Shown here piece by piece: positions 2,569-44,836 of a stretch of DNA of 64,000 nucleotides. The notes beneath the pieces are model-generated. The model ran no database searches and was not told the origin of the DNA. It saw only the letters and a program-made list of their open reading frames with translations. This DNA comes from Solidesulfovibrio carbinolicus. Lineage in GTDB: Bacteria > Desulfobacterota > Desulfovibrionia > Desulfovibrionales > Desulfovibrionaceae. The position numbers and the translations under genes were made by a program. The stretch covers positions 2,480,001-2,544,000 of the forward strand of contig NZ_CP026538.1 of NCBI RefSeq assembly GCF_004135975.1. The letters run 5' to 3'. Numbering within the stretch: position 1 is the first letter of the stretch; every line of letters starts with the position of its first letter.

Positions 2569-4272
2569 ATGCCCGCCCCTTTTTCCGTGCCCGACATCCT
2601 GGGTTCCCTTGAACGGCCGGTGCTGGCCGTGGACGCCGACGGCCGGGTGGCCAACGTCAACCCCGCCGCGCTTTCCATGTTCGGGCCCGAGGTGGCCACG
2701 CCCGGCGCGGCCCTGCCCCTGGCCCGGCCCGATCTCTGGCAGCCCATGGCCAAATGCCTGGCTACGGGCGAGGTGGTCTATGATCGCCTCAATGTCGGCT
2801 CCAAGACCGTGGTCGCCACCACCTTTCCCATCCGCCGCGACGGCCGGGTGGTCGGAGCCACCTGCATCTGCCGCCCCTGCGCCGGCGAAGCCCATCCGGC
2901 CATGGAAGGCCGCTTGGGGGCCATTCTCGATTCCGTGTCCGACGGCATCTGGATCTGCGACGGCTCGGGAACCATCCTCTCCATCAATGCCGCCTCCGAA
3001 CGCCTCAATTCCGTCAACGCCGAGGACTACGTCGGGAAAAACGTGTCCTGCATCGTGGCCCAGCGCATGGTCGACCGCTCGGCCACCCTGGACGTGCTTG
3101 AAACCAAACGCCAGTCGAGCATGATCCAGCACATCACCAAGACCGGCAAACAGCTCTTGGTCACGGCCACTCCGGTGCTGGGCGACCAGGGCGAGGTGGC
3201 CCTGGTGGTGGTCAACGAGCGCGATGTGACGGAATTGCAAAATCTCAGGCAAGGGCTTCAAAACGCCCGCAAGGTGGAAGAACGCTACCGCAGCGAACTG
3301 GCCGAGTTGTCGCTTTTCGAGCTTTCCCAGAAGGATATCGTGGCCCAAAGCGGCCAGATGCAGCGCACCTTGCGCACCCTTTTAAAGCTCGCCCAGATGG
3401 ACGCCTCACGGGTTTTGCTGCTTGGCGAATCCGGCACCGGCAAAGGTCTGCTCGCCAAATTTCTGCACCAGGTCAGCCCCCGTTCGCCCAAGCCGTTTAT
3501 TCAGATCAACTGTCCGGCCGTGCCGGAAAACCTGTTCGAGGCCGAACTTTTTGGCTATGAAAAAGGGGCCTTTACCGGCGCGCGCGAGGCCGGCAAGGCG
3601 GGGTTGATCGAATTGGCCGCCGGGGGCACGCTGTTTCTCGACGAAGTGGGCGACATCCCCCTGGGCATCCAAGCCAAGCTGCTCAAATACCTCGACGACC
3701 ACGAGCTGCGCCGCCTGGGCGGGGCCGAGGCCCGCACCGTGGAATGCCGGGTGGTGGCGGCCACCAACTGCGACCTGGAAGGCCTGGTCGAGCGCCGCCA
3801 GTTCCGCACCGACCTCTATTATCGCCTCAACACCTTCGTGGTGCGCATCGCCCCCCTGCGCGAGCGCCGCGAGGACATCTTCGGCCTGGCCGAATTCTAC
3901 CTGGCCCAGCAAAACGCCCGCCACGGCAAGGCCAAGCGCCTCTCGGCCCGGGCCATGCGCCAGCTTGAAGCCTACGCCTTCCCTGGTAACGTCCGGGAAC
4001 TGGTCAGCATCATCCAGAAAGCCTTTGTCATGAGCGACGACGACGACCTTACCGACGCGCTCATCGAAGCCCTGGCCGGCGACACGCCGCCGGCGGTGGA
4101 CACGCCGTCCGGCCCCCGTCCCCTGGCCGATTCCACCGAGCAAACGGCCATCCGGCGTCTGCGCGAGGCCATGGCCGCCTGCCGCACCACCCGGGAGATG
4201 GCCGCCCATCTCGGGGTGAGCCAGGCCACAGTGGTGCGCAAGCTCAAGCGCTACGGCCTTTCCCGCTCCTGA
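2569..4272 (+). CDS. PAS-domain sigma-54-dependent transcriptional activator
   Basis: 567 residues. Residues 1-105 form a PAS-like sensor. A second PAS covers about 115-225 (start IWICDGSGTILSINAA). A short coiled linker leads to the AAA+ domain, with Walker A GESGTGKG at 286-293, the sigma-54 contact loop GAFTGA at 333-338 and Walker B LFLDEVGD at 355-362. The C-terminus (about 525-565) is a helix-turn-helix of the TyrR/Fis type. Such enhancer-binding proteins hydrolyse ATP to open sigma-54 polymerase. There is no receiver domain, so the signal is probably a ligand or redox state sensed by PAS. The next operon has a -24/-12 promoter and repeated upstream palindromes, making it the likely target. 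Confidence 0.95.
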   Translation: MPAPFSVPDILGSLERPVLAVDADGRVANVNPAALSMFGPEVATPGAALPLARPDLWQPMAKCLATGEVVYDRLNVGSKTVVATTFPIRRDGRVVGATCICRPCAGEAHPAMEGRLGAILDSVSDGIWICDGSGTILSINAASERLNSVNAEDYVGKNVSCIVAQRMVDRSATLDVLETKRQSSMIQHITKTGKQLLVTATPVLGDQGEVALVVVNERDVTELQNLRQGLQNARKVEERYRSELAELSLFELSQKDIVAQSGQMQRTLRTLLKLAQMDASRVLLLGESGTGKGLLAKFLHQVSPRSPKPFIQINCPAVPENLFEAELFGYEKGAFTGAREAGKAGLIELAAGGTLFLDEVGDIPLGIQAKLLKYLDDHELRRLGGAEARTVECRVVAATNCDLEGLVERRQFRTDLYYRLNTFVVRIAPLRERREDIFGLAEFYLAQQNARHGKAKRLSARAMRQLEAYAFPGNVRELVSIIQKAFVMSDDDDLTDALIEALAGDTPPAVDTPSGPRPLADSTEQTAIRRLREAMAACRTTREMAAHLGVSQATVVRKLKRYGLSRS

Positions 4273-4288
4273 TTCACTTCTGCATCAG
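4269..4288. promoter_or_regulatory. Imperfect CTGAT palindrome, possible activator site 1
   Basis: CTGAT and ATCAG arms are separated by 10 bases and overlap the stop codon of the sigma-54 regulator. It shares the CTGATTC half-site with the two better palindromes downstream. This is the weakest of the three copies. Confidence 0.35.
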
Positions 4289-4441: not shown

Positions 4442-4466
4442 ATGCTGATTCAACTTGATTCAGCAT
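4442..4466. promoter_or_regulatory. Upstream activator palindrome, site 2
   Basis: ATGCTGATTCAA and TTGATTCAGCAT are 12-base arms around one central base, with one mismatch pair. The centre lies about 170 bases before the expected start of transcription from the -24/-12 promoter at 4596-4611, a usual position for an enhancer-binding protein. It is most likely bound by the regulator at 2569-4272 (inference). Confidence 0.65.
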
Positions 4467-4513: not shown

Positions 4514-4533
4514 CTGATTCATAACAGAATCAG
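4514..4533. promoter_or_regulatory. Upstream activator palindrome, site 3
   Basis: A perfect repeat, CTGATTC and GAATCAG, is separated by the 6 bases ATAACA. The centre is about 100 bases before the predicted start point. It has the same half-site as the palindrome at 4442-4466, about 70 bases (near seven helical turns) apart. That spacing fits cooperative binding by one regulator. Confidence 0.65.
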
Positions 4534-4595: not shown

Positions 4596-4611
4596 CGGTC
4601 CGGTTCTTGCT
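4596..4611 (+). promoter_or_regulatory. Sigma-54 (-24/-12) promoter of the aminotransferase operon
   Basis: The sequence CGGTCCGGTTCTTGCT has the invariant GG (4597-4598) and GC (4609-4610) exactly ten bases apart, with TTGC at the -12 element. Transcription would start near 4622, leaving a leader of about 65 bases before the GTG start at 4689. The surrounding 4273-4688 gap has no gene; it is AT-richer than its neighbours and carries the three palindromes listed separately. Confidence 0.75.
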
Positions 4612-4688: not shown

Positions 4689-6014
4689 GTGAACACCACC
4701 GACAAGGCGCAGGAACTGCAAGCATTGCGTGATCGCTATGTCCCCAAGGGGCATCCCAACGCCACGCCCTTTTTCGTCGAATCCGCCAAGGGCGCCCTGC
4801 TTCGCGACGTCACCGGACGCGAGTTCATTGATTTCGTCGGCGGCATCGGCGTGTTAAACGTCGGCCACTGCCACCCCAAGGTCGTCGCCGCCGTCAAGGA
4901 TCAGGCCGGACGCTATCTCCACACCTGCTCCATGGTCACCATGTACGAGCCCTACGTCCAGCTCGCCGCCCGCCTGTCCGAAGCCGCCCCGGGCGACTTC
5001 GAGAAAAAGGCGATGTTCGTCAACAGCGGCTCCGAAGCCGTGGAAAACGCCGTGAAGATCGCCCGCTGCCACACCGGCCGGGCCGGCGTCGTGTCCATGA
5101 AAAACGCCTTCCACGGCCGCACCTTGCTGGCCATGTCCCTGACCAGCAAGGTCAAGCCCTACAAGTTCGGCTTCGGCCCCCTGGCCCCGGAAGTCTACCA
5201 GTACCCCAACTACGCCTACTGCTACCGCTGCCCCCTGGGCCTGACTTATCCTAAGTGCGGCGTGGCCTGCGCCGACAAGCTGCGCGAGTTTTTTATCGCC
5301 ACCGCCGCCGCCGAGAATATCGCCTGCATCATCGCCGAGCCGGTCCAGGGCGAGGGCGGCTTCGTGGTTCCGCCCAAGGAATTCTTCGAGAAGCTGCGCG
5401 CCATCTGCGACGAATACGGCATCGTTTTCGTGGCCGACGAAATCCAGTCCGGCTTTGGCCGCACCTCCAAGCTCTTTGCCATGGAGCATTTCGGCGTGGC
5501 CCCGGACCTCATGACCGTGGCCAAGTCCATGGGCGGCGGCCTGCCCCTGGCCGGCGTGGTCGGCAAGGCCGAGATCATGGATTCCGTGCCCCCGGGCGGC
5601 ATCGGCGGCACCTACGGCGGCAACCCGCTGGCCTGCCGCGCGGGTCTAGCCGTCATGGACATCTTCGAACAGGACAACCTGCTGGCCAAGGCCGAGCGCC
5701 TGGGCGGCGTGGTCAAGCGCCGCTTTGCTTCGTTTAAGAAGCAGTACCAGCTCATCGGCGACGAGCGCGGCCTTGGGGCCATGCGCGCCCTGGAATTCGT
5801 TTCCGACCGCGCCACCAAGGCCCCCTGCCCCGAGGCGGCCAAGGGCGTGGCCAAGTTCTGCCAGGACAACGGGCTGCTCGTTTTGTCCTGCGGCAATTTC
5901 GGCAACTGCATCCGGGTGCTCATGCCCCTGGTCATCACCCGCGACCAACTCGACCGCGGCCTGGACATCATGGAAGAAGGCATCCGCGAGGTCTCCAAAA
6001 GCCTCGGCAAATAA
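4689..6014 (+). CDS. gabT: Class III omega-aminotransferase (4-aminobutyrate aminotransferase type)
   Basis: 441 residues, GTG start with a GAGG ribosome site 7-10 bases upstream. The pyridoxal-phosphate lysine is Lys279 (TVAKSMGGG) and the cofactor-contacting aspartate is Asp250 (VADEIQSGFG). NSGSEAVENAVKIAR is the phosphate-binding loop. The enzyme moves an omega-amino group (GABA, beta-alanine, 5-aminovalerate or ornithine-like substrates) to a 2-oxo acid and leaves an aldehyde. Between residues 178 and 194 there is a cysteine-rich insertion (CX2CX8CX3C) not present in E. coli GabT. It is the first gene of a sigma-54 operon that also holds an amino-acid importer and an aldehyde oxidoreductase, which could oxidise the aldehyde. 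The exact substrate is not determined. Confidence 0.9.
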   Translation: MNTTDKAQELQALRDRYVPKGHPNATPFFVESAKGALLRDVTGREFIDFVGGIGVLNVGHCHPKVVAAVKDQAGRYLHTCSMVTMYEPYVQLAARLSEAAPGDFEKKAMFVNSGSEAVENAVKIARCHTGRAGVVSMKNAFHGRTLLAMSLTSKVKPYKFGFGPLAPEVYQYPNYAYCYRCPLGLTYPKCGVACADKLREFFIATAAAENIACIIAEPVQGEGGFVVPPKEFFEKLRAICDEYGIVFVADEIQSGFGRTSKLFAMEHFGVAPDLMTVAKSMGGGLPLAGVVGKAEIMDSVPPGGIGGTYGGNPLACRAGLAVMDIFEQDNLLAKAERLGGVVKRRFASFKKQYQLIGDERGLGAMRALEFVSDRATKAPCPEAAKGVAKFCQDNGLLVLSCGNFGNCIRVLMPLVITRDQLDRGLDIMEEGIREVSKSLGK

Positions 6015-6063
6015 CGGCAACAAGGCCCGACCCAGCCAACCGACAACGTAAAGAGGTGCAGGC

Positions 6064-7311
6064 ATGAAAAACGGTTCCATCACGACGATTCTGGCCGGCT
6101 GCATGGGCATGGCCCTGTCCGCCGCCCTGTTCGCCGCTCCGGCCCTGGCCGCCGACAAGACCGTCAAGATCGGCAACGTCGAGCCCCTGTCCGGTCCGTC
6201 GGCCTCGGTCGGCGTCCAGGGCAAGCAGGCCCGGGAAATGGCCATCGAGGAGATCAACGCCGCCGGCGGCATCAAGTCCCTGGGCGGCGCCAAGCTGGAG
6301 CTGGTCTATGCCGACAGCAAGTCCGACCCCACCGTCGGCGTCACCGAGACCGAGCGCCTCATCAACACCGAAAAAGTCAACCTCATGACCGGCTGCTGGA
6401 ACTCGGCCGTCACCTACCCGGCCACCCAGGTGGCCGAGCGCTACGGCATCCCCTTCGTGGTGCCCGTGGCCGTGCGCGACACCATCACCGAGCGCGGATT
6501 TAAAAACGTCTTCCGCATCGCCGCCAAGGACTCCTGGTGGGTGCGCGACCAGTTCCGTTTCCTCAAAGACATGCAGGAAGAAACCGGCGTGAAGCTGCAA
6601 AAGATCGCCTTTGTCTTTGAAAACGGCGACTGGGGCACCGGCTTTGCCGAGAAGTGGCGCGAACTGGCCAAAAAAGACGGTTACGAGGTCGTCCTCGACG
6701 AACCCTATCCCAGCACCGCCACCGACCTTACCCCGGTGGTGACCAAGCTCAAGGCCGCCAAGCCCGACATCGTCATGCTGGTGTCCAACGCCGCCGACGC
6801 CATCCTTTTGACCAACACCATGGCCGAAATGCAGGTCAAGCCCAAGGTCGTCCTGGCCAGCGGCGGCGGCCACGCCGATCCCAAGTTCCTGGAAAACACC
6901 GACACCAACGCCCTGGGCATCTTTGACGAAGTCGAGTGGAACACCGACGTCAACAAGCCCGCCGCCAAGCCGGCCAACGAAAAGTTCAAGAAAAAGTACG
7001 GCTACGACCTGACCGGCGAGTCCGTTGACGCCTACGTCGCCATGTACGTCATCGCCGACGCCCTGGAACGAGCCGCCTCCACCGAGCCGGCCAAGATCCG
7101 CGACGCCCTGGCCGCCACCAACCTCACCACCGGACCGGGCATGGTCGTCTCCTACGACGGCGTCAAGTTCGACGAGACCGGCCAGAACAAGAACGCCGGC
7201 ATCGTCATTGTCCAGGTGGCCAATGTCGATGGCAAGCCCGACCGCGTCACCGTGTGGCCCAAGGCCGCCCGCCGCGCCGGCTACGTCCCGGCCTTCCCGG
7301 CCAACAAGTAG
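6064..7311 (+). CDS. Branched-chain-type amino acid ABC transporter, periplasmic binding protein
   Basis: 415 residues. The N-terminus has a Sec signal peptide (positive residues, hydrophobic stretch, APALA-A cleavage site near residue 30). The mature part begins KTVKIGNVEPLSGPSA, the start typical of type I periplasmic ligand-binding proteins of the LivJ/LivK family. It captures an amino acid or amide in the periplasm and passes it to the LivHM channel. It lies 49 bases after the aminotransferase. A strong hairpin follows before livH, which would favour higher levels of the binding protein than of the membrane parts. The ligand is not readable; the operon suggests an omega-amino acid or a branched-chain amino acid. 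Confidence 0.93.
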   Translation: MKNGSITTILAGCMGMALSAALFAAPALAADKTVKIGNVEPLSGPSASVGVQGKQAREMAIEEINAAGGIKSLGGAKLELVYADSKSDPTVGVTETERLINTEKVNLMTGCWNSAVTYPATQVAERYGIPFVVPVAVRDTITERGFKNVFRIAAKDSWWVRDQFRFLKDMQEETGVKLQKIAFVFENGDWGTGFAEKWRELAKKDGYEVVLDEPYPSTATDLTPVVTKLKAAKPDIVMLVSNAADAILLTNTMAEMQVKPKVVLASGGGHADPKFLENTDTNALGIFDEVEWNTDVNKPAAKPANEKFKKKYGYDLTGESVDAYVAMYVIADALERAASTEPAKIRDALAATNLTTGPGMVVSYDGVKFDETGQNKNAGIVIVQVANVDGKPDRVTVWPKAARRAGYVPAFPANK

Positions 7312-7328
7312 TAACACGTTGCAGTAAC

Positions 7329-7357
7329 GCCCCGGACCGGCCTTTCCGGTCCGGGGC
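7329..7357 (+). promoter_or_regulatory. Intercistronic hairpin between binding protein and livH
   Basis: A perfect 12-base stem (GCCCCGGACCGG / CCGGTCCGGGGC) with a 5-base loop sits in the 67-base gap. No T-tract follows, so it looks like an mRNA stabiliser or partial attenuator rather than a full terminator. Confidence 0.6.
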
Positions 7358-7378
7358 AAACGTCCGGAGAGGCTTTTC

Positions 7379-8263
7379 ATGACCGCGGTGATTCAGGCGA
7401 CGCTCAACGGCGCCATGATGGGAGCCATGTACGGGCTGACGGCCCTTGGACTCACTCTGATCTTCGGAGTGATGAAAGTCGTCAACTTTGCCCATGGCTC
7501 ACTGCTTATGGTCGGCATGTTCAGCGCATATTGGCTGATTCGGCTCACGGGCATCCACCCGTATCTGGCCCTTGTCATTGTACCGCCCGTCCTGTTCGTT
7601 TTCGGCTATTATCTGCAGGACGTGGTCATCAAACCCGTGTTCAAAGCCGAAGGCCAGGTGCGGGAACCGTTGACGGTCATCATCGTCACCACCGGCGTCT
7701 GGTACGTCCTCGACAACCTGGCGCTGATGCTGTTCGGCGCCGAGTACCGCACGGTGCGTACGGCCATTTCCAACAAGTCCTTCGCGCTCGGGGAATTCAT
7801 CATCTCCATTCCCAAATTTTCCGGCTTTGTCGTGGCCGTTGCCACGGCCGTCGGTCTTGCCCTGTTCATGCGCAAGACCAAAACCGGCAAAGCCCTTCGG
7901 GCCACCAGCCTGGACCGCGAAGCGGCCAACCTCATGGGGATCAACCAGTACCGCATCTACAACATCGCCTTCGGCCTCGGCACGGCCATCGCCGGCATCG
8001 CGGGCTGCGTGCTCATCCCCTTTTATTACGTCTATCCTTCGGTGGGCGTGGTCTTCGACATCCGGGCCTTTATCATTGTGGTGCTCGGCGGCCTGGGCAG
8101 CATTCCCGGCGCGCTCCTGGGCGGCCTGGTCATCGGCCTGATCGAATCCGTCTTCTCCCAGTTCATGGCCTCCACCTGGACCGAAGCCATCATCTACGCC
8201 ATCTTCCTCATCATTCTCTTCGTCAAACCATCCGGCTTCTTCGGCCACAAACAGGATTGGTAG
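7379..8263 (+). CDS. livH: Branched-chain amino acid ABC transporter permease LivH
   Basis: 294 residues, highly hydrophobic, with about eight membrane helices. The N-terminal NGAMMGAMYGLTALGLTLIFGV stretch (split here: GAMMGAMYGL, LGLTLIFGV) and the cytoplasmic loop AANLMGINQYRIYNIAFGLG are typical of LivH permeases. The latter contains the coupling (EAA-like) region that contacts the ATPases. An AGAGGC ribosome site precedes the ATG. With LivM it forms the inner-membrane channel. It stands between the binding protein and livM in the usual family order. Confidence 0.95.
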   Translation: MTAVIQATLNGAMMGAMYGLTALGLTLIFGVMKVVNFAHGSLLMVGMFSAYWLIRLTGIHPYLALVIVPPVLFVFGYYLQDVVIKPVFKAEGQVREPLTVIIVTTGVWYVLDNLALMLFGAEYRTVRTAISNKSFALGEFIISIPKFSGFVVAVATAVGLALFMRKTKTGKALRATSLDREAANLMGINQYRIYNIAFGLGTAIAGIAGCVLIPFYYVYPSVGVVFDIRAFIIVVLGGLGSIPGALLGGLVIGLIESVFSQFMASTWTEAIIYAIFLIILFVKPSGFFGHKQDW

Positions 8264-8273
8264 GAGGCGCGCC

Positions 8274-9281
8274 GTGAGCCGAAAACAACTTGACCGGACC
8301 TTGCTGATCGCGGCGGCCCTGGTGGCCTTCGGGCTGCCCCTGGTGGTGACCTCGCCCACCTATTTGCAAATCCTCATCCTGCTCTTTTTCTACGCCTACC
8401 TGACCACGGCCTGGAACCTGGTCGGCGGTTTCGCCGGCGTGTTGCCCTTGGGGCATTCCGTTTTCGTCGGCATCGGGGCCTACACCTCCTCGATCCTGAC
8501 CCTGCAGTACGGCGTGTCGCCCTGGATCGGCATGTTGGTCGGCGGGGCCATTGCCGCCGTCATCGGCGTCATCATCGGGCTGCCCACCTTCCGCATGCGC
8601 GGGGCCTACTTCTGCCTGTGCACCATCGCCTTTGCCGAAGGCATCCGGGTCATGGTGGAAAATATCGACACCCTGGGACCGCTGAAGATCAACGGCCCCC
8701 GGGGGCTGCTTGTGCCGCTGCTCAAGGATCCCACGTTCTGGGACTACCAGTTCATGTCCAAGCTACCGTACTATTACATCATTCTGGTTCTTCTGATCCT
8801 GGTCCTCGCCTTTACCTGGTTCGTCTCCCGCTCCAAGATCGGCTACTATCTGGCCGCCGGCGGCGAAGAACCCGAGGCCGCCGCCGCCCTGGGCATCAAC
8901 GTGGCCAACTACAAGCTCTTCGCCATGGCCCTGTCCTGCTTCCTCACCGCCCTGGCCGGCACGTTCTACGCCCAGCTCATGCTCTACTTCTATCCCAAAG
9001 GGCTCATGGGCCTGGACCTCTCCTTCGAGATCGCCTTTATCGCGCTCATCGGCGGCCGGGGCACCATCGCCGGCCCGGTCATCGGCGCGCTGCTCTTGCG
9101 ACCGCTTAATGAATTCACCCGCATCTACTTAAGCGACATGCTGCCCGGGCTGCATCTGGTCATCTTCGGGCTCATCCTCATCCTGGTCATGATCTACCTG
9201 CCCAAGGGTCTCACCGCGCCGCTGGCCGCCCTTTATGACCGGCTGGCCCGCAAAATCACCGACCAGGGAGCAGCGAAATGA
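8274..9281 (+). CDS. livM: Branched-chain amino acid ABC transporter permease LivM
   Basis: 335 residues, polytopic. GTG start at 8274, preceded by TAGGAGG at a good distance, 10 bases after livH. The conserved LivM segments TTAWNLVGGFAGVLPLGHS and the coupling loop AAAALGINVANYKLFAMALS are present. The stop overlaps the livG start (ATGA), giving translational coupling. It pairs with LivH in the inner membrane. Confidence 0.95.
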   Translation: MSRKQLDRTLLIAAALVAFGLPLVVTSPTYLQILILLFFYAYLTTAWNLVGGFAGVLPLGHSVFVGIGAYTSSILTLQYGVSPWIGMLVGGAIAAVIGVIIGLPTFRMRGAYFCLCTIAFAEGIRVMVENIDTLGPLKINGPRGLLVPLLKDPTFWDYQFMSKLPYYYIILVLLILVLAFTWFVSRSKIGYYLAAGGEEPEAAAALGINVANYKLFAMALSCFLTALAGTFYAQLMLYFYPKGLMGLDLSFEIAFIALIGGRGTIAGPVIGALLLRPLNEFTRIYLSDMLPGLHLVIFGLILILVMIYLPKGLTAPLAALYDRLARKITDQGAAK

Positions 9282-10006
9282 GCAACATCCTGGAAGTCAC
9301 CAATCTCACCAAGCACTTCGGGGGCTTAACCGCCGTCAGCTCCCTGGACCTGCACATCAAGACCGGCGAAATCCTGGCGCTCATTGGTCCCAACGGCGCG
9401 GGCAAATCCACGGTCTTTAACCTCGTGGCCGGCGTGTTCGCCCCCTCCGAGGGCGTGATCAAATTCGCCGGACAGACCATCCACGGCCAGAAGCCCTGGG
9501 ATCTCGCCCGGCTGGGGCTGGCCCGCACCTTCCAGATCGTCAAGCCCTTCGGCAGCAAGACCGTGCTGTACAACGTCATGGTGGGAGCCTTTTTGCGCAC
9601 CAATTCCACCATCAAGGCCCGGGAAATTGCCGAAGAAGTGCTGGTCACCCTCCAGCTCGACCATACCAAGGACATGCTGGCCGCCAACCTCACCATCGCC
9701 GACCGCAAACGCCTGGAGATCGCCAAGGCCCTGGCCACCGATCCCAAGCTGCTGCTTCTCGACGAGGTCATGGCCGGCCTTCGCCCCACCGAAGTCGACG
9801 ACATGATCGGCATCATCCGGGGACTGCGCGACCGGGGCGTCACCGTCTTTGTCATCGAGCACATCATGCGCGCCGTCATGGCCCTGTCCGACCGGGTGGT
9901 GGTCATCCAGTTCGGCCAGAAGATCGCCGAAGGCTCGCCCGAGGCCGTCACCAAGGATGAAAACGTCATCAAGGCCTATCTGGGAGGCGAGTATGACGCT
10001 GCTTAG
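9278..10006 (+). CDS. livG: Branched-chain amino acid ABC transporter ATPase LivG
   Basis: 242 residues. Walker A is GPNGAGKS, followed by the LivG-type Q-loop region ARTFQIVKPF, and Walker B LLLLDEVMAGL. The signature helix is altered (LTIADRKRLEIAKAL), with no canonical LSGGQ; this is a visible departure, since most LivG proteins have LSYGQQR here. LivF next door has a normal LSGG signature, so the heterodimer probably still has one consensus ATP site. It starts 4 bases inside livM and its own end overlaps livF by 14 bases. Confidence 0.93.
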   Translation: MSNILEVTNLTKHFGGLTAVSSLDLHIKTGEILALIGPNGAGKSTVFNLVAGVFAPSEGVIKFAGQTIHGQKPWDLARLGLARTFQIVKPFGSKTVLYNVMVGAFLRTNSTIKAREIAEEVLVTLQLDHTKDMLAANLTIADRKRLEIAKALATDPKLLLLDEVMAGLRPTEVDDMIGIIRGLRDRGVTVFVIEHIMRAVMALSDRVVVIQFGQKIAEGSPEAVTKDENVIKAYLGGEYDAA

Positions 10007-10703
10007 CGTGGAGAACATCAACGTCGCGTACGGCGACGTGCAGATCATCAACGACCTCTCGCTGACGGTCAACGAAGGCGAGGTGGTGAGCATCATCGGC
10101 GGCAACGGCGCGGGCAAATCGACCTTGCTGAAGGCCATTTCGGGCCTGGTGCCGCCGAGTTCAGGAATCATCCGCTTCAGGGGCGAGGCCATCCAGGCCC
10201 TGCCCCCCGAAGCCGTCGTCGAGCGCGGTCTGGTCCATGTGCCCGAGGGCCGCCGGCTCTTTTCGCTCATGACCGTGGCCGAGAACCTGGACATCGGGGC
10301 CTACAACTCGCGGGCCTACAAGGACCGTGACAAGACCCTGCGCCAGGTCTACGAACTGCTGCCGCGCCTGCTCGAGCGCCAGACCCAGCTGGCCATGACG
10401 CTCTCCGGCGGCGAGCAGCAGATGGTGGCCATCGGCCGGGGACTCATGGCTCTGCCGGGCCTGCTCATGCTCGACGAGCCGTCCCTGGGTCTGGCTCCCA
10501 TCCTGGTCAAGTCGATCTTCGAGACCCTGCGCAAGATCGCCGACGCCGGCACCACGGTGCTTCTGGTCGAACAGGACGTCAACCATTCGCTGCGTCTGTC
10601 CGACCGGGGCTACGTCCTGGAACACGGCCGGGTGGCCATGTCCGGCTCGGCCAAGGAACTGCTGGAAAACCCCCACGTCAAATCGGCCTATCTCGGCATT
10701 TAA
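9993..10703 (+). CDS. livF: Branched-chain amino acid ABC transporter ATPase LivF
   Basis: 236 residues from the ATG at 9993 (MTLLSVENINVAYG). The open frame extends further upstream, but those codons lie inside livG and do not match the family. Walker A is GGNGAGKS, the signature is TLSGGEQQMVAIGRGLM, and Walker B LLMLDEPSLGLAP. It pairs with LivG to drive import. It overlaps livG by 14 bases. Confidence 0.95.
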   Translation: MTLLSVENINVAYGDVQIINDLSLTVNEGEVVSIIGGNGAGKSTLLKAISGLVPPSSGIIRFRGEAIQALPPEAVVERGLVHVPEGRRLFSLMTVAENLDIGAYNSRAYKDRDKTLRQVYELLPRLLERQTQLAMTLSGGEQQMVAIGRGLMALPGLLMLDEPSLGLAPILVKSIFETLRKIADAGTTVLLVEQDVNHSLRLSDRGYVLEHGRVAMSGSAKELLENPHVKSAYLGI

Positions 10704-10714
10704 AAGGAAAAGCC

Positions 10715-12493
10715 ATGCACGGCTTTCACGGACGCATCATTACTGTTGACCTGACCCGGCGCGCTTTCACTATCGAAGCGGCCGATCCGGCCCATCTTGA
10801 CGCCTATCTGGGCGGCAAGGGCCTAGCCACCCGGCTGCTGCTCGACCGCAACCCGGCCGGGGTCGATCCCCTGGCTCCGGAGAACAACCTCATCTTCGCC
10901 GCCGGCCCCTTGTGCGGCGGCGTGGCCTGGGGGGCCAGCCGCTACGGCGTGTTCACCAAATCCCCCCAGACCGGGTTTTACACCGAATCCTATTCCGGCG
11001 GCCGCACGCCCCAGGCCGTGGACGCCGCCGGTTTCGACGCCGTGGTCCTCACCGGCGCGGCGAATGCGCTCACGGCCCTGACCATCCACCCCGACGGCTG
11101 CACCTTCCACGACGCGGCCGATCTGGCCGGCCTGGACGCCTACGCCACCGAAGACGCGGCCCGGGAGCGTTTCGTGCTGCCCCGCGACGACGCCAAGCGC
11201 GTGGGCGCGGTGGTCATTGGCCCGGCCGGGGAAAACCTGTGCCGACTGGCCATGATCGCCAACGAACGCTGGCGTTGTGCCGGCCGCACCGGCGTCGGCG
11301 CGGTCATGGGCTCCAAAAAGGTCAAGGCCATCGTGTTCCAGGGCGACCGCAAGCGCCAGGCGGCCGATCCCGCCGGCCTGGCCGCCCATGCCGCCGCCTT
11401 TGCCAAGCGCGGGGTGGAGACCAAGGGCGTGCAGGTCTACAAGGCCATGGGCACGACCATGATGGTCGGGGTCATGAACGCGGCCGGAGCCTTTCCGGCC
11501 AAGTACTGGACCCAGGGCAACTGCGAACATTGGGAGAAGATCTCAGGCGAGACCTTCCACAAGGAGCACGAGGTCAAGGCCCACGCCTGCGCCAAATGCT
11601 TCATGTCCTGCGGCCGCATGGCCAAGCTCGCCTCGGGCCGCCACAAGGGCCTGACCCTGGAAGGGCCGGAGTACGAAACCATCTACGCCTTCGGCGGGCT
11701 GTGCATGATCGATGACATGGCCGAGATCGTGTATTTAAACGACCTCTGCGACCGCCTGGGCATTGATACCATCTCCGCCGGCAACCTCTGCGCCTTCACC
11801 GTCGAGGCCGTCTCGCGCGGCCGGGTGGACTACCCCATCGCCTACAACGACCCCGACGGCGCGGCCCGGCTCATCCAGGACATCGCCTCGGGCACGGGCA
11901 TCGGGGCGCTCCTGGGCCAGGGCATCAAGGTCGCGGCCCGGGCCTGGGGACTGGAAGACCTGGCCGTCCACGTCAAGGGCCTGGAGCCGGCCGGCTACGA
12001 CCCCCGGGCGCTTCGCGGCATGGGGCTGGCCTACGCCACATCCGACCGGGGGGCCTGCCATCTGCGCACCACCTTCTACAAGCCCGAGCTGGCCGGCATG
12101 ATCCCGCCCGACGCCGTGGAAGGCAAGGCGGCCATGCTCATCGAGTTCGAGGACCGTCTCACCATCTTCGATACGCTTATCCTGTGCCGGTTCTTCCGCG
12201 ATCTCTACACCTGGGACGAGCTGACCCAGGTCATCGGCCTGACCACCGGCCTCGACGCCAGCGAAGCAGCGCTCAAACGCCGGGCCGCGGCCATCGCCGA
12301 CATGACCCGGGAGTTCAACCTGCGCGAAGGGCTGACCCCGGCCGACGACCGCCTCCCGGAGCGCATCCACCGCGAACCCCTGCCAAGCGGCAAGGAACTC
12401 CCCCGCGAGGCCTTCGACGCCATGCTGGCCGACTATTACCGGTTGCGCAATTGGTCGCCTCAGGGCGTGCCGACCGGCGCTGCCGACCTCTAA
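10715..12493 (+). CDS. aor: Aldehyde ferredoxin oxidoreductase (tungsten/molybdenum pterin enzyme)
   Basis: 592 residues, full length for the AOR family. The [4Fe-4S] ligands are Cys292, Cys295 and Cys299 (CAKCFMSC) and Cys491 (TLILCRFF). The N-terminal GGKGLATRLLLD and GGRTPQAVDAAG segments and the pterin-binding GSKKVKAIVFQG are conserved. AORs oxidise aldehydes to carboxylic acids and reduce ferredoxin, in the cytoplasm. The gene begins 11 bases after livF with an AAGGA ribosome site. Its position behind an omega-aminotransferase suggests that it oxidises the semialdehyde, replacing an NAD-linked semialdehyde dehydrogenase, which is absent here (inference). Confidence 0.95.
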   Translation: MHGFHGRIITVDLTRRAFTIEAADPAHLDAYLGGKGLATRLLLDRNPAGVDPLAPENNLIFAAGPLCGGVAWGASRYGVFTKSPQTGFYTESYSGGRTPQAVDAAGFDAVVLTGAANALTALTIHPDGCTFHDAADLAGLDAYATEDAARERFVLPRDDAKRVGAVVIGPAGENLCRLAMIANERWRCAGRTGVGAVMGSKKVKAIVFQGDRKRQAADPAGLAAHAAAFAKRGVETKGVQVYKAMGTTMMVGVMNAAGAFPAKYWTQGNCEHWEKISGETFHKEHEVKAHACAKCFMSCGRMAKLASGRHKGLTLEGPEYETIYAFGGLCMIDDMAEIVYLNDLCDRLGIDTISAGNLCAFTVEAVSRGRVDYPIAYNDPDGAARLIQDIASGTGIGALLGQGIKVAARAWGLEDLAVHVKGLEPAGYDPRALRGMGLAYATSDRGACHLRTTFYKPELAGMIPPDAVEGKAAMLIEFEDRLTIFDTLILCRFFRDLYTWDELTQVIGLTTGLDASEAALKRRAAAIADMTREFNLREGLTPADDRLPERIHREPLPSGKELPREAFDAMLADYYRLRNWSPQGVPTGAADL

Positions 12494-12520
12494 CCCCAAA
12501 GCATCCCAAAGGAGCGGCAC

Positions 12521-13177
12521 ATGCTTGTCGGCGATTGGATGTCCACCGACGTGGCCACGGCGACCGAGGATGTCTCGATGATCAAGGCCGGTCGGATCAT
12601 GCGCGACAAAAAAATCCGTCGTCTGCCCGTGGTGGACAAGGACGGAAAGCTTGTCGGCATCATTTCCGAGCGCGACCTCAAAGCGGCCTCGCCGTCCTCG
12701 GCCACCTCACTGGACATGTACGAAATGACCTACCTGCTCTCGGAGCTCAAGGTCAAAGCCATCATGACCAAGGACCCGGTGCGCATCCGGTGCACCGACA
12801 CCGTGGAGCGGGCGGCGCTTATCATGCGCGACCGCAAGTTCGGCAGCCTGCCGGTGGTCGATGAAACGAACAAGGTGGTCGGCATCATCACCGACACCGA
12901 TATCTTCCGCCTGTTTGTCTCCATCACCGGCATCGACCAGGGCGGCATCCAGATCGGGCTGCGCCTGGGCGTGGCCGAGGGCAGCCTCAAGCCGGTGCTT
13001 GATGAGCTGCGCCGTTTCGAGGCCCGCATCGTGAGCATCCTGTCCTCCTACGACCGGGGCGGCCCGGGCCAGCGCGACGTGTCCATCCGCATTCAGGGTC
13101 TGCCAGAGACCCGGGAACGGGAACTGCGCGCCGAACTCGAAAAGACCGGACACCTGCTCTACTGGACCCGCGATTAG
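12521..13177 (+). CDS. CBS-pair protein with C-terminal ACT-like domain
   Basis: 218 residues. Two CBS motifs occupy about 1-55 (VGDWMSTDVATA, RRLPVVDKDGKLVGIISERDL) and 75-135 (AIMTKDPVRI, GSLPVVDETNKVVGIITDTD). The remaining 80 residues look like an ACT-type fold (KPVLDELRRFEARIVSILSS). CBS pairs bind adenosyl nucleotides, and ACT domains bind amino acids. The protein resembles the AcuB group and carries no catalytic domain. It is the last gene of the sigma-54 operon, 27 bases after aor, and is followed by a terminator. It could sense energy charge or the amino-acid substrate and adjust the pathway (inference). Confidence 0.88.
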   Translation: MLVGDWMSTDVATATEDVSMIKAGRIMRDKKIRRLPVVDKDGKLVGIISERDLKAASPSSATSLDMYEMTYLLSELKVKAIMTKDPVRIRCTDTVERAALIMRDRKFGSLPVVDETNKVVGIITDTDIFRLFVSITGIDQGGIQIGLRLGVAEGSLKPVLDELRRFEARIVSILSSYDRGGPGQRDVSIRIQGLPETRERELRAELEKTGHLLYWTRD

Positions 13178-19780: not shown

Positions 19781-20224
19781 ATGAAGATCCATCGCGCCCT
19801 GCGCATGGAGCGCTGCATAGGTTGCCATTCCTGTTCCCTGGCCTGCGCCCGGCTGGTTTACAAGTCCATGTCCTGGCAAACCGCCGGCATCCGCATCCGA
19901 TCCACCGGCGGCGTGTCCAGCGGCTTCCAGGCCATCCTGTGCCTGGCCTGCGACCCGGCCCCGTGCGCTGCCGCCTGCCCCACCGGGGCCATGCGCCAAC
20001 GCAAGTCCGGCGGCGGGGTAACCCTCAAAAAATCCCTGTGCATCCAGTGCGGCCAATGCGCCGCCGCCTGTCCGGTGGACGCCATCAATCTTGACGCGGC
20101 CGGCAATCCCGCCGTGTGCCTGCACTGCGGCCAGTGCACCGCCTATTGCCCCCATGACTGCCTGGAGCTGGTCGAGGCCGACACGCCCGCCGCCCCCTGC
20201 CTGGAGAGTTGCCATGTCGAATGA
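19781..20224 (+). CDS. Four-cluster [4Fe-4S] ferredoxin-like subunit of AOR
   Basis: 147 residues from ATG 19781, with GGAG at a good distance; an ATG at 19706 would add 25 residues without family similarity. Four cysteine groups are visible: CIGCHSCSLAC, CLACDPAPCAAAC, CIQCGQCAAAC and CLHCGQCTAYC. They are enough for four [4Fe-4S] clusters, as in the small subunits of the HycB/CooF and AorA type. It overlaps the next gene, an AOR large subunit, by 11 bases. It is likely the electron wire between the AOR and a partner. Confidence 0.9.
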   Translation: MKIHRALRMERCIGCHSCSLACARLVYKSMSWQTAGIRIRSTGGVSSGFQAILCLACDPAPCAAACPTGAMRQRKSGGGVTLKKSLCIQCGQCAAACPVDAINLDAAGNPAVCLHCGQCTAYCPHDCLELVEADTPAAPCLESCHVE

Positions 20225-21998
20225 GGCAAACGATCTGTTCCGCGTCCTGGTCTATGACCTCGAACGCGGTCGCGGCGAACTGGCCATCCTGCCCGGTCGG
20301 CGGGACTACCTCGGCGGCTCGGGGCTGGCGGCGCTCCTCTACGAAAAATATGGCCTGCCCACGGCCCCGGCCTTCGATCCCCGCCAGCCGCTGATTTTCG
20401 CCATTGGTCCGGCCACCGGCTATTTCCCGCTCATGAGCAAGACCGTGTGCGGCTTCAAATCGCCCTACAACGAAAACTACGCCGAATCCCACGCCGGCGG
20501 CCGTTCGGCCCTGTCCCTGCGTTTTGCCGGCTACGACGCCCTGGTGGTGGTGGGCAAGGCCCCGAGGCTCTCCACCCTGGTGGTCGGTTCGCGGCGCATC
20601 GAACGCCTCGACGTCCACTATCTGGCCGGGGCCGACGTGTTCACCACGGGCAAGCTCCTGCGAAAAATCGCCGAAGGGGCCTCGGGCCACCGCAGCATCC
20701 TGCGCATCGGCCCGGCCGGAGAAAACGGCTCGGGCTACGCCTGCATCAACGTCGATACCTACCGCCACTTCGGCCGCCTCGGGGCCGGGGCGGTCATGGG
20801 CGCGAAAAACCTCAAAGGCATCGTCCTGCAGGGCGACGGCGACTTGCCCCTTCCGGCCGACAAGGGCTACGCCAAGCTTTTCAAGGACATTCACGAAAAG
20901 GTCACGTCTTCGGGGATGATGGAAAAATACCACAACCTCGGCACCCCGGCCAACGTGCTGCCCTTAAACGAACTCAAGTCCCTGCCCTGGCGCAACTTGG
21001 CCGCCACCAGCGACGCCGAGGCGGACAAGGTCTCGGGCGAGGCTTTTGCCGAAAAGCTCCTCATGCACAACGCCGCCTGCGCCGGCTGCCCGGTGGGCTG
21101 CATCCACGTCGGCATGGTGCGCGAGATGTTCTCGACTTCCCACCGTTTCGCCATCCATCAGGTGGCCTACGACCACGAGCCCAACTTCGCGGCCGGCCCC
21201 ATGCTTGGCGTGACCGATCCGGTGGAGGTGCTGGCGATAAACGACATGGCCGACCGCCAGGGTCTGGACATCATCTCGGCCGGCGTGGCCCTGGCCTGGG
21301 CCGTGGAGGCCACGCAAAAGGGCGTCATTTCCGAAAAGGAAACCGAGGTGAAGCTCGCCTTCGGCGACGCGGCCGCCCTAAAGCGCGCCATGTGGCTCAT
21401 CGGCCACAAGGCCAACGACTTCTATGCGCTGCTTGGCCAGGGCGCCATGGCCGCCGCCGCCCATTACGGCGGGGCCGACTACGCCTGCGTGCTGGGGCAG
21501 GAAATGGCCGGCTACGCCACGGGCGAGACCTATTTTGCCTCCCAGACCGTCGCTTTCCGTCATTCCCACCTCGATACCGGGGCCTACTCCTACGACCAGA
21601 AGCACAAGGAGCAGGACGTGGCCAAGGTGGTGGATTTCCTTGTCAAGGACGAACGCGAACGGGTGCTTCTCACCTGCCTTGTGGCCTGCCTTTTCGCCCG
21701 GGAGGTCTACAAGCCCGAAGTCATCGCCTCGGTGCTCGGCTGCCTGGGCCACGAGGAACTGGCCGGCTCCTTTGACGCCGCCGCCGAGAACGCCCGGCGC
21801 GCCCGCTGGCGGCTCAAGATCGCCACCGGCTACGATCCCAGGGCCACGCGCATTCCCAAGCGCTTCACCGAGGTGACCACCTGGAAGGGGCCGGTGGACG
21901 CGGTCTACATGGAGGCCCTGCGGGCCGCCTATGCCGAGGCCGTGGCCGAACTCGGCGCGCCGCCTGCCGCCGCCGAGCCCCAACCGCCGGCTATGTAA
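20214..21998 (+). CDS. Aldehyde ferredoxin oxidoreductase family protein, second copy
   Basis: 594 residues from ATG 20214. Cluster cysteines are Cys289, Cys292 and Cys296 (CAGCPVGC), with the fourth in the LLTCLVACLF segment (Cys488 or Cys492). GGSGLAALLYEKYG and the pterin-binding GAKNLKGIVLQG are family features. It differs clearly from the AOR at 10715-12493, so it is a separate subfamily and not a recent duplicate. With the four-cluster protein encoded just upstream it resembles the two-subunit core of AorAB-type enzymes. An FAD subunit (AorC) is not in this window. The substrate is unknown. Confidence 0.92.
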   Translation: MSNEANDLFRVLVYDLERGRGELAILPGRRDYLGGSGLAALLYEKYGLPTAPAFDPRQPLIFAIGPATGYFPLMSKTVCGFKSPYNENYAESHAGGRSALSLRFAGYDALVVVGKAPRLSTLVVGSRRIERLDVHYLAGADVFTTGKLLRKIAEGASGHRSILRIGPAGENGSGYACINVDTYRHFGRLGAGAVMGAKNLKGIVLQGDGDLPLPADKGYAKLFKDIHEKVTSSGMMEKYHNLGTPANVLPLNELKSLPWRNLAATSDAEADKVSGEAFAEKLLMHNAACAGCPVGCIHVGMVREMFSTSHRFAIHQVAYDHEPNFAAGPMLGVTDPVEVLAINDMADRQGLDIISAGVALAWAVEATQKGVISEKETEVKLAFGDAAALKRAMWLIGHKANDFYALLGQGAMAAAAHYGGADYACVLGQEMAGYATGETYFASQTVAFRHSHLDTGAYSYDQKHKEQDVAKVVDFLVKDERERVLLTCLVACLFAREVYKPEVIASVLGCLGHEELAGSFDAAAENARRARWRLKIATGYDPRATRIPKRFTEVTTWKGPVDAVYMEALRAAYAEAVAELGAPPAAAEPQPPAM

Positions 21999-22193: not shown

Positions 22194-23843
22194 ATGGCCC
22201 AACTCACCGAGCATCCGGCCCACAGCGCCCTCGTCGCTCACCATGAGCGCGTCAAGGAACTGCACATGCGCGACCTGTTCGCCGCCGACCCCGGCCGGTT
22301 CGACAACTATTCCCTGCGCCTGGGCGACGTCCTGTTCGATTATTCCAAGAATCGGGTCACGGACGAGACCCTGGGCCTGCTGTTCGACCTGGCCCGGCAA
22401 GCCGGGGTGGAAGCCCGGCGCGACGCCATGTTCGCCGGCGAAAAGATCAACCGCACCGAAAACCGGGCCGTGCTCCACGTGGCCCTGCGAAACCGCGCCA
22501 ACCGGCCCATCGCGGTGGACGGCCGCGACGTCATGCCCGACGTCAACAAGGTGCTCAACCAGATGCGCATTTTTTGCGGCCGCGTCCATTCCGGCCAGTG
22601 GAAGGGATACACCGGCAAGGCCATCACCGACGTGGTCAACATCGGCATCGGCGGCTCGGACCTGGGGCCGCAGATGGCGAGCCTGGCCCTGGCCCATTAT
22701 GCCGTGCCCGGCATCACGTCGCATTTCGTTTCCAACGTGGACGGCGCGCACATGGTGGACACGCTAAGGCGCGTCTCCCCGGAGACGACTCTTTTCATCA
22801 TCGCCTCCAAGACCTTCACCACCCTGGAGACCATGGCCAACGCTCATGACGCTCGGGATTGGTTTCTCGCCCAGGCCGGCGACGAGGCGGCCGTGGCCAA
22901 GCATTTCGTGGCTCTGTCCACCAACGCCGAGGCCGTGGCCGCCTTCGGTATCGACACGGCCAACATGTTCGCCTTTTGGGATTGGGTCGGCGGGCGCTAT
23001 TCCCTGTGGTCGGCCATTGGCCTGTCTATCGCCCTGGCCGTGGGCTTCGACAACTTCGAGGCCATGCTCGAAGGCGCGTTTATCGCCGACGAGCATTTCC
23101 GGTCCGCGCCCCTGGAGCGCAACATTCCGGTGGTCATGGGACTGCTCGGCATCTGGTACAACAATTACTTCGGGGCCCAGACCCAGGCCATCCTGCCCTA
23201 CGACCAGCACCTGACCCGGTTCGCCGCCTATTTCCAGCAAGGCGACATGGAGAGCAACGGCAAGTCCGTCACCAATGACGGCCGGTTCGTGGACTACACC
23301 ACCGGCCCCATCATCTGGGGCGAACCCGGCACCAACGGCCAGCATGCCTTTTACCAGCTCATCCACCAGGGCCGAAAGCTCATCCCCTGCGATTTCCTGG
23401 CCGCCGCCGTCACCCGCACACCCCTGGGCCGGCATCAGGACATGCTGTTGTCCAACTTCTTTGCCCAGACCGAGGCCCTCATGAAGGGCAAGACCGTGGA
23501 CGAAGCCCGGGGAGAACTTACCGGCAAGGGATTGGACGAGGCACAATTGGAGCTTTTATCCAAGGCCAAGTCCTTCACCGGCAACCGCCCGACCAATTCG
23601 TTCCTGTATCGCGTCCTGGATCCCAAGACCCTGGGCACGCTGATCGCGCTCTACGAGCACAAGATTTTTGTCCAGGGAACCATCTGGGACATCAACTCCT
23701 ACGACCAGATGGGCGTGGAACTCGGCAAGGTGCTGGCCGGGACCATCCTCAAGGAGTTGGAGGACGACGCGCCAGTGAAATCCCACGACTGCTCCACCAA
23801 CGGCTTGGTCAATTACTACAAGGAATTGCGTCTGGGCGACTAG
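22194..23843 (+). CDS. pgi: Glucose-6-phosphate isomerase
   Basis: 549 residues, full length. [13 protein letters not shown] forms the sugar-phosphate binding site, [12 protein letters not shown] and [18 protein letters not shown] are the two signature blocks, and the catalytic glutamate is in [12 protein letters not shown]. It interconverts glucose-6-phosphate and fructose-6-phosphate in the cytoplasm. A ribosome site AAAGGAG lies 8 bases before the ATG. The opposite-strand glgA and glgB genes close by make this a carbohydrate storage neighbourhood. Confidence 0.97.
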
Positions 23844-43921: not shown

Positions 43922-44836
43922 TCAGGCGGTTTTATACCGCACCAGCGGCCGCCGCCGGCCGGCTGGCCGGGCGTAGGACACGGCCGGCCAGCCCAGGGCC
44001 AAAACGGCATGGACCGTTTCCTCCCGGGGCAACCCCGCCGCCGCCTTGACCCGCTTGTCGTGGCGCATGGCCTCGACAGCGTAGCCGATAAGGCAGGAGC
44101 CAAGCCCCAGGCAGTGGGCGGCCAAAAGCATGTTGCCCGTGGCCAACAGCGCGTCCTCGGCCGGACAGCTCGCCCCGGGCCTGGAGCCGACCACCACCAC
44201 GGCCGTGGCCCCGTGAAAAAGCCGGTCCGTGCGGTCGCGCTCCCAGGCAGCCAACGCCTCGGCCACCGACGCATAATGCTCACGGTAGTAGTCTTCCAGC
44301 TCCCGACGGCCCAGGAGCGCGTAGCCTTTGCGCACGAGCGGATTGGCGGCCAGGCGATTGACGCGGCCGAAAAATCCGGCCACGGCCTGGCCCAGGCTCA
44401 TGACCGCCGCCCGGGTGGCCAGCACCGTGAAGGTCCAGGCCTGGGAATTGGTGCCTGACGGCGCGGTGATCCCGGCGCGAATCACATCCTCAATAACGGG
44501 GCCGGGCACGGGCCGTTCCAGATAGCGCCGGCAGGAACGCCGGGAGCGCATAAGATCGACCAAGCGCCCGGCCTGACAGCCCCCCGGGGCGATCTGCTCG
44601 CCCGAGGACTCGATGACGTCGTAAGCCTGGGCCCAGGGATCGTCGCCGGGAATGGTCAGGGCGCACTGGGGGCACACGGCCCGGCACTGGCCGCAGCCGA
44701 TGCAGCCGGCCCCGGCCACCACCACCAGGCCGTCGCCCAGGGACAACACCCCGGACGGACAGACCGCCACGCACTCCCCGCAGCCCACGCAGGCGGCGGC
44801 GTCCAGTATCGGCGAATCACTCCCCATGCGCACCAT
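43922..44836 (-). CDS. Ferredoxin-nitroreductase fusion protein
   Basis: 304 residues. Two [4Fe-4S] motifs are at the N-terminus: Cys16-19-22-26 (CVGCGECVAVC) and Cys45-48-51-55 (CIGCGQCRAVC). The nitroreductase domain follows (RSRRSCRRYLERPVP, PSGTNSQAWTF, then a C-terminal GLGSCLIGY). Such fusions in anaerobes take electrons from the clusters to FMN and reduce nitro or flavin-type substrates. There is a second ATG at 44827. It lies 18 bases after the NlpC/P60 gene, but its role in an envelope cluster is unclear. Confidence 0.93.
   Translation of the reverse strand: MVRMGSDSPILDAAACVGCGECVAVCPSGVLSLGDGLVVVAGAGCIGCGQCRAVCPQCALTIPGDDPWAQAYDVIESSGEQIAPGGCQAGRLVDLMRSRRSCRRYLERPVPGPVIEDVIRAGITAPSGTNSQAWTFTVLATRAAVMSLGQAVAGFFGRVNRLAANPLVRKGYALLGRRELEDYYREHYASVAEALAAWERDRTDRLFHGATAVVVVGSRPGASCPAEDALLATGNMLLAAHCLGLGSCLIGYAVEAMRHDKRVKAAAGLPREETVHAVLALGWPAVSYARPAGRRRPLVRYKTA

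Follow-up and report, generated by a model that had tools for sequence, protein, structure and literature searches.

This study concerns a putative sigma-54-dependent operon at 4689–13177 of the window, the 64,000-nucleotide stretch of DNA analyzed here, which corresponds to positions 2480001–2544000 of contig C1 in the 4.69 Mb genome of Solidesulfovibrio carbinolicus. Based on open reading frame (ORF) calls and profile scans, eight narrowly spaced genes lie on the + strand of this region, including those for an importer, an omega-aminotransferase, and an aldehyde ferredoxin oxidoreductase (AOR), and none of the eight belongs to the aldehyde dehydrogenase family. An earlier note on this DNA had listed the same three components as parts of a single sigma-54 operon, a gene list that the ORF calls and profiles confirm, and had proposed that the AOR oxidizes the aminotransferase product instead of a semialdehyde dehydrogenase. 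The results described here suggest that the AOR holds the place of a succinate semialdehyde dehydrogenase (SSADH) in an operon that probably serves the catabolism of 4-aminobutyrate (GABA).

The operon and its putative promoter

The first gene (4689–6014, + strand) encodes a predicted GabT, a class III aminotransferase of the 4-aminobutyrate:2-oxoglutarate type (TIGR00700, 540.8 bits vs. a cut-off of 506.65 bits). A Liv-type importer follows and spans 6064–10703 as a whole. It consists of a periplasmic amino-acid-type substrate-binding protein (6064–7311; PF13458, 212.1 bits) and, by profile match, a LivH-type permease (7379–8263), a LivM-type permease (8274–9281), a LivG-type ATPase (9278–10006), and a LivF-type ATPase starting at the ATG at 9993 (9993–10703), all on the + strand. 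The AOR-family protein (10715–12493, +; PF02730 and PF01314) is a predicted tungsten aldehyde:ferredoxin oxidoreductase and our proposed semialdehyde oxidase; profile scans found no gene for a partner subunit of it among the operon genes. The last gene encodes a tandem CBS-domain protein (12521–13177, +; two PF00571 domains), which is a possible sensor. Upstream of gabT and on the same strand lies the gene of a sigma-54-dependent activator with PAS, AAA+, and HTH domains (2569–4272, +; PF00158, 208.9 bits; PAS_4; HTH_50), the likely regulator of the operon; related cassettes likewise have this gene beside gabT. A perfect G+C-rich hairpin with 11-base arms and a 5-base loop separates the binding-protein gene from the LivH gene (7330–7356) and possibly dampens the expression of the membrane parts of the importer.

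The gene at 4689–6014 is the only aminotransferase gene in the genome above the TIGR00700 cut-off, and the closest solved structure of its product is that of Escherichia coli GabT (1sf2, E 1.2e-125). Its Ile53, Arg144, Glu222, Lys279, and Arg409 align with Ile50, Arg141, Glu211, Lys268, and Arg398 of E. coli GabT, which we take to be functional residues of that enzyme. Moreover, these five residues are constant in the 30 AOR-linked GabTs that were scanned out of 37 (four near-copies, two frameless genes, and one split gene were omitted). All 30, the window counted, reach the TIGR00700 cut-off with an E-value of 3e-152 or better, a value equal to 506.65 bits within a bit. By the curated cut-off and the aligned residues, the enzyme is assigned as a GabT. 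Two other identities were rejected. For an isoleucine epimerase or racemase, which the Liv-type importer had brought to mind, the leucine/methionine racemase model reaches 365 bits vs. 592 and 541 bits for the GabT models; for an indole- or aryl-pyruvate route, a keto-acid decarboxylase is absent from the operon genes.

The best match to a sigma-54 −24/−12 promoter between the activator gene and gabT lies at 4596–4611 (+ strand, 9 of 12 consensus positions). This match alone is weak because 41 sites with at least 9 of 12 matches occur on the two strands of the 64 kb. Of 23 regions of relatives (window counted), 21 have a site of at least this quality in the vicinity of the gabT start, as do 11 of 14 regions of a further set. 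Furthermore, the palindrome TGATTC-N6-GAATCA at 4515–4532, a putative operator, is the sole perfect copy in the genome. An operator-like copy with one mismatch lies at 4270–4287, and a repeat search and comparison with relatives gave an operator-like imperfect inverted repeat (TGCTGATTCAA/TTGATTCAGCA) at 4443–4465. With up to one mismatch allowed, the palindrome occurs at four places genome-wide, of which two belong to this promoter region; a control pattern had zero matches in the same search. At this stringency, 40 of 57 regions upstream of gabT also contain the palindrome, with 84 sites in total, compared with a mean of 0.16 and a maximum of 2 regions in 50 dinucleotide shuffles, a comparison that is not a probability because the upstream sequences are related. 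Collectively, the activator, the upstream palindromes, and the −24/−12-like site, with like sites in relatives, bear out at the sequence level the sigma-54 control claimed earlier. Of the two genomic copies that lie away from this promoter, one, with a single mismatch, also falls in the window (44467–44484) and may have arisen by chance.

AOR and SSADH-type genes in related cassettes

GabT exceeds its cut-off in 35 and SSADH in 26 of 149 genomes of the family. The exchange test took in all 21 over-cut-off GabT places in family genomes that lack this AOR, and the cassette of activator, GabT, binding protein, and Liv genes is kept at 12 of them. Ten of these 12 cassettes carry an SSADH-type gene, and none carries this AOR. 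Six of the SSADH-type genes lie directly after LivF, which is the position of the AOR in the window (G010, G051, G048, G071, G091, and G093). In G109 and G025, which belong to the genus of the window, the gene is divergent from the activator, and the CBS protein gene stands directly 3' of LivF; in G066 and G100, the gene lies beyond the activator. Four of the ten (G010, G051, G109, and G025) exceed TIGR01780 and are of the GabD type; G048, G071, G091, G093, G066, and G100 have their best match, below the cut-off, in an NADP succinic semialdehyde dehydrogenase model. In the twelfth cassette (G112:C31), the contig ends after LivF.

Among the other nine GabT places, an SSADH-type gene is present in four (L167, L168, L173, and L179), and L166 and L180 have neither an SSADH-type nor an aminobutyraldehyde dehydrogenase gene. 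At L171, L176, and L177, GabT is accompanied by another class III aminotransferase and by a dehydrogenase above the NF010000 cut-off, a gene set that suggests putrescine breakdown to GABA; by this cut-off, the dehydrogenases are aminobutyraldehyde dehydrogenases, and an SSADH-type label was rejected for them.

In the GabT tree, 28 rows are labeled AOR only, 17 dehydrogenase only, 6 both, and 3 none (L171, L176, and L177 keep the dehydrogenase label here, which leaves the AOR-only count unaffected). The AOR-only label requires five changes, at least three of which are forced by well-supported branches. Six GabTs linked to an AOR and two linked to a dehydrogenase, all from the genus of the window, group together with full support, and the exchange within otherwise like operons of one genus provides a matched comparison of both routes. 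Collectively, AOR and SSADH-type genes exchange in this kind of locus, and the GabT tree and the gene orders support the view that the AOR holds the SSADH place in this operon and does so in parallel in further lineages.

The pairing of GabT with this AOR was counted by tblastn over 98 distinct AOR genes. The sample comprised the family matches and the best 80 of at least 577 further loci, together 103 regions, and leans toward near relatives of the query; L060 and L061 (contigs of L079 and L080) and then five duplicates with an identical AOR were dropped from the counts, and loci L014–L017 stood outside the analysis. In 37 of the 98, the AOR is preceded by a same-strand GabT gene, which is adjacent in 17, separated from the AOR by the importer in 19, and split in one. 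An Fe-alcohol dehydrogenase gene stands beside the AOR in 14 (13 upstream and one downstream). Two regions are ended by contig ends, and 10 have too little sequence. Whether or not the importer is present, GabT–AOR pairing recurs in Desulfovibrionaceae, Desulfobulbaceae, Desulfocapsaceae, and Desulfobacteraceae.

The AOR group and its pocket residues

The window AOR matches AFOR_N with 221.1 bits and AFOR_C with 385.2 bits. The cluster cysteines Cys292, Cys295, Cys299, and Cys491 and the second-shell residues Thr247, Glu321, Tyr428, and His449, the latter listed according to PMC12096430, are present in all 98 members of the group. Based on the domains, the cysteines, and the second-shell residues, the protein is a member of the AOR family, and its use of tungsten and ferredoxin is predicted. 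Among the matches listed, its closest relatives are in a genome of the same genus (100%) and in S. magneticus records (97% protein identity). Some AOR match is found in 117 of the 149 family genomes; only 25 matches in 19 genomes have 52–100% identity, and the listed family matches below this set have at most 38%.

Two further positions distinguish this group. Position 481 is Arg in 98 of 98 members, and position 492 is Arg in 95 and Lys in three. In single-sequence and profile alignments, the pair aligns with Arg481 and Arg492 of Pyrococcus furiosus FOR; the 492 column, beside the fourth cysteine, is firm, whereas the 481 column stands beside a one-residue gap and has a low posterior. In FOR, these arginines presumably grip the distal carboxylate of glutarate, a point for which the open literature offered no confirmation. 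The arginine pair occurs in none of the four solved AORs compared, which, as aligned, have Leu/Leu (1aor and 9mqx), Ala/Val (8c0z, which we take to be the Aromatoleum enzyme), and Leu/Ile (9g7j) at 481/492. Seven other AORs of the family also lack the pair, with one Arg and one Lys at 492.

In the AOR tree, which was built by a quick method and has long outgroup branches, a 40-row clade with a Shimodaira–Hasegawa-like approximate likelihood ratio test (SH-aLRT) value of 100 includes 28 rows linked to GabT. Nested inside this clade are five Fundidesulfovibrio-type paralogues linked to Fe-alcohol dehydrogenase, and all five of their genomes carry a GabT-linked copy as well. Such a change of partner between GabT and Fe-alcohol dehydrogenase would be explained if the semialdehyde product is shared. 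More broadly, and as a tentative suggestion that we find plausible rather than probable, the AORs with the arginine pair may form a bacterial subfamily dedicated to omega-carboxy aldehydes, which would have been exchanged repeatedly with NAD(P) semialdehyde dehydrogenases in the GABA operons of sulfate reducers and would lead amino acid breakdown to reduced ferredoxin, while the copies beside Fe-alcohol dehydrogenases would do the same for omega-hydroxy acids, e.g., 4-hydroxybutyrate. The choice of 4-hydroxybutyrate is a guess because the sole Fe-alcohol dehydrogenase partner scanned is under every cut-off. In L069, L071, L073, and L074, which are of the Fundidesulfovibrio type, a sigma-54 activator, a different Liv-type importer, an Fe-alcohol dehydrogenase, and an AOR paralogue stand together, and these operons possibly take up and oxidize omega-hydroxy acids; L070 has a parallel AOR-paralogue operon with another permease.

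Proposed route, alternatives, and precedents

Comparison of genes lends good support to the view that the AOR oxidizes the product of GabT, most likely converting succinic semialdehyde to succinate, because SSADH-type and AOR genes exchange, GabT–AOR pairing recurs, and the arginine pair is conserved. The operon as a whole probably imports and catabolizes an omega-amino acid, most likely GABA, with the AOR replacing the NAD(P) succinate semialdehyde dehydrogenase, and the gene exchange, the pairing in 37 of the 98 loci, and the arginine pair favor this core idea of the earlier note. In the proposed route, the Liv-type ATP-binding cassette (ABC) importer would take up the omega-amino acid, and GabT would transfer its amino group to 2-oxoglutarate, yielding glutamate and succinic semialdehyde. 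The AOR would then oxidize succinic semialdehyde to succinate and pass two electrons to ferredoxin, the acceptor expected from its family. Glutamate dehydrogenase would regenerate 2-oxoglutarate; its gene is a neighbor of the AOR gene at four of the 98 loci (the one scanned has 734.6 bits vs. a cut-off of 536 bits), which fits net ammonia release. The upstream activator would switch the operon on by binding the palindromic operators. Rnf was considered as a ferredoxin sink, but the genome has no rnfC that exceeds the cut-off; five [FeFe] hydrogenase large-domain matches make a hydrogenase such as Hnd a possible sink. The acid/aldehyde couple has a potential far below that of NAD, so an NAD(P) dehydrogenase loses energy that the AOR could keep as reduced ferredoxin, and such a gain would matter at the low yields of sulfate reducers.

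Several findings weigh against this proposal. Solved binding proteins, 8wch among those compared, left the importer ligand undecided. The palindrome is absent from 17 of the 57 gabT upstream regions, including 14 of the 37 AOR-linked ones, and no dehydrogenase was seen in the covered stretch of G116, a cassette that lacks the AOR. The 481 column has a low posterior, the window AOR is overall nearer to AOR (1aor, E 9e-96) than to FOR (1b25, E 3.8e-73), and characterized AORs are described as broad-range and are often read as detoxifying (PMC12096430). In addition, 35 of the 98 AORs lack both partners, GabT and Fe-alcohol dehydrogenase, among their same-strand neighbors, and two of these (L099 and L112) have a GabT relative of 53–57% identity on the opposite strand. 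These 35 would fit an AOR that is unconnected to the GabT product, oxidizes another aldehyde, and shares only regulation with the other genes, an explanation that we regard as very improbable in view of the pairing in four families, with and without the importer, and of the SSADH-type genes that occupy the AOR place in relatives.

A search for gabD in the genome, as proposed in the earlier note, found an unlinked gabD-type gene at C1:1815316 (TIGR01780, 683.7 vs. 646.35 bits) and a weaker YneI/Sad-type gene at C1:659409, below all cut-offs; a dehydrogenase at C1:291464 is, as a guess from its long frame, of the PutA type. Thus, the claim that an AOR stands instead of a semialdehyde dehydrogenase holds for the operon and fails for the genome. 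Furthermore, a dehydrogenase is also present in the locus in six of 13 single-contig AOR cassettes. AOR and gabD are not always alternatives because five Fundidesulfovibrio-type loci carry both (gabD lies downstream at a distance of no more than 6 kb), and the AOR cassette of G090 holds a dehydrogenase relative of 38% identity. Among the 18 GabT–AOR genomes, in two of which the locus was pieced together across contigs, 14 contain an SSADH match at some location (E up to 1e-140). The unlinked gabD might be the main oxidizer, with the AOR as a safety valve for excess or related aldehydes or running backwards to reduce succinate; besides the presence of gabD and the shared loci, the Aromatoleum AOR, which replaces a lost dedicated phenylacetaldehyde-oxidizing enzyme (PMC12096430), gives this explanation a parallel. 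However, the AOR lies in the same operon as the importer, and four of the 18 genomes (G013, G054, G077, and G090) lack a TIGR01780 match within the E-value limit of 1e-140 (other dehydrogenases were unsurveyed, and G090 has the 38% relative). A co-regulated gabD elsewhere had been named beforehand as a point that would speak against the route; at the level of motifs, the genome-wide search placed no operator palindrome before the unlinked gabD, and no good sigma-54 site was found in the 500 bases upstream of it (best 7 of 12). We consider it unlikely that the unlinked gabD is the main oxidizer.

The GabT- and GabD-type families also serve 5-aminovalerate and glutaric semialdehyde. The same route might act on another omega-amino acid, 5-aminovalerate (or beta-alanine), with the AOR oxidizing glutaric (or malonic) semialdehyde, and it is in line with such a substrate that FOR, which shares the aligned arginine pair, was crystallized with glutarate and that its native substrate may be glutaric semialdehyde (PMC12096430). 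However, the aminotransferase finds its best match in GABA transaminase models, all ten dehydrogenases of the AOR-less cassettes best match succinate semialdehyde models, and profile scans found no glutarate-degrading gene among the operon genes. Collectively, these matches make GABA the preferred substrate and the other omega-amino acids rather improbable.

GABA catabolism itself is known, and what appears to be new is the operon-level exchange of AOR and SSADH. Similar to GabT–GabD catabolism, the window has a GabT-type enzyme over the curated cut-off, an uptake system, and the same expected intermediate; unlike in an SSADH-containing GABA operon, gabD is unlinked, and the last oxidation is assigned to the operon AOR. 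FOR resembles the window protein as a proposed semialdehyde oxidase of the AOR superfamily with the aligned arginine pair, whereas the window protein is bacterial, nearer to AOR in overall sequence, and encoded in an operon with GabT. In S. fructosivorans, Aor2487 is described as acting with Adh3929 in ethanol oxidation, with NADH and reduced ferredoxin proposed to feed the Hnd hydrogenase (PMC10084766). This is likewise a sulfate-reducer AOR proposed to yield reduced ferredoxin, but its substrate is ethanol/acetaldehyde and not an amino acid, and the likeness is one of proposed function. The AOR of Aromatoleum aromaticum oxidizes an aldehyde from phenylalanine degradation (PMC12096430 and PMC6365974) and is thus similar in acting on an aldehyde from amino acid breakdown; it differs in being described as a backup once the dedicated dehydrogenase is lost and as an NAD-coupled three-subunit complex (PMC12096430), and the arginine pair is absent from the 8c0z sequence.

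In the titles and abstract beginnings of the open-access literature, nothing was found that links an AOR of a sulfate reducer to the breakdown of GABA or succinic semialdehyde, and the main text of the D. vulgaris sigma-54 regulome (PMC4641369) did not contain the terms looked for. The earlier statement that the route is not described stands, within this literature, for the operon-level exchange and not for the chemistry, which has a precedent in FOR. Many clades of the AOR family are described as purely hypothetical (PMC12096430); if the proposal is true, one branch of the family would gain a physiological substrate.

Other gene sets were observed around AORs. In L055, L076, and L142, the GabT–AOR pair adjoins CoA-transferase subunits and an M20 deacylase, with a thiolase in L076 and L142, and by eye, genes for another aminotransferase and for polyamine-type permeases can be made out in L055 and L076. 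A gene resembling 3-hydroxyisobutyrate/hydroxybutyrate dehydrogenase lies near the AOR in L149, L090, and L063, and its product is possibly another maker or remover of the aldehyde. In Desulfobacterales-type bins (L126, L130, L133, and L135), the AOR follows a conserved three-gene set (c31, c21, and c26), with no GabT or alcohol dehydrogenase. Within the window, a second, distant AOR-family gene (20091–21998, +) stands directly 5' of a phosphoglucose isomerase gene (22194–23843, +) and perhaps encodes a sugar-linked tungsten enzyme. Finally, a glutamate-cysteine-ligase family 2 gene (374–1639, +) and an N-formylglutamate-amidohydrolase-like gene (1605–2324, +) precede the activator, and genes related to this pair are kept at the same place in some near relatives.

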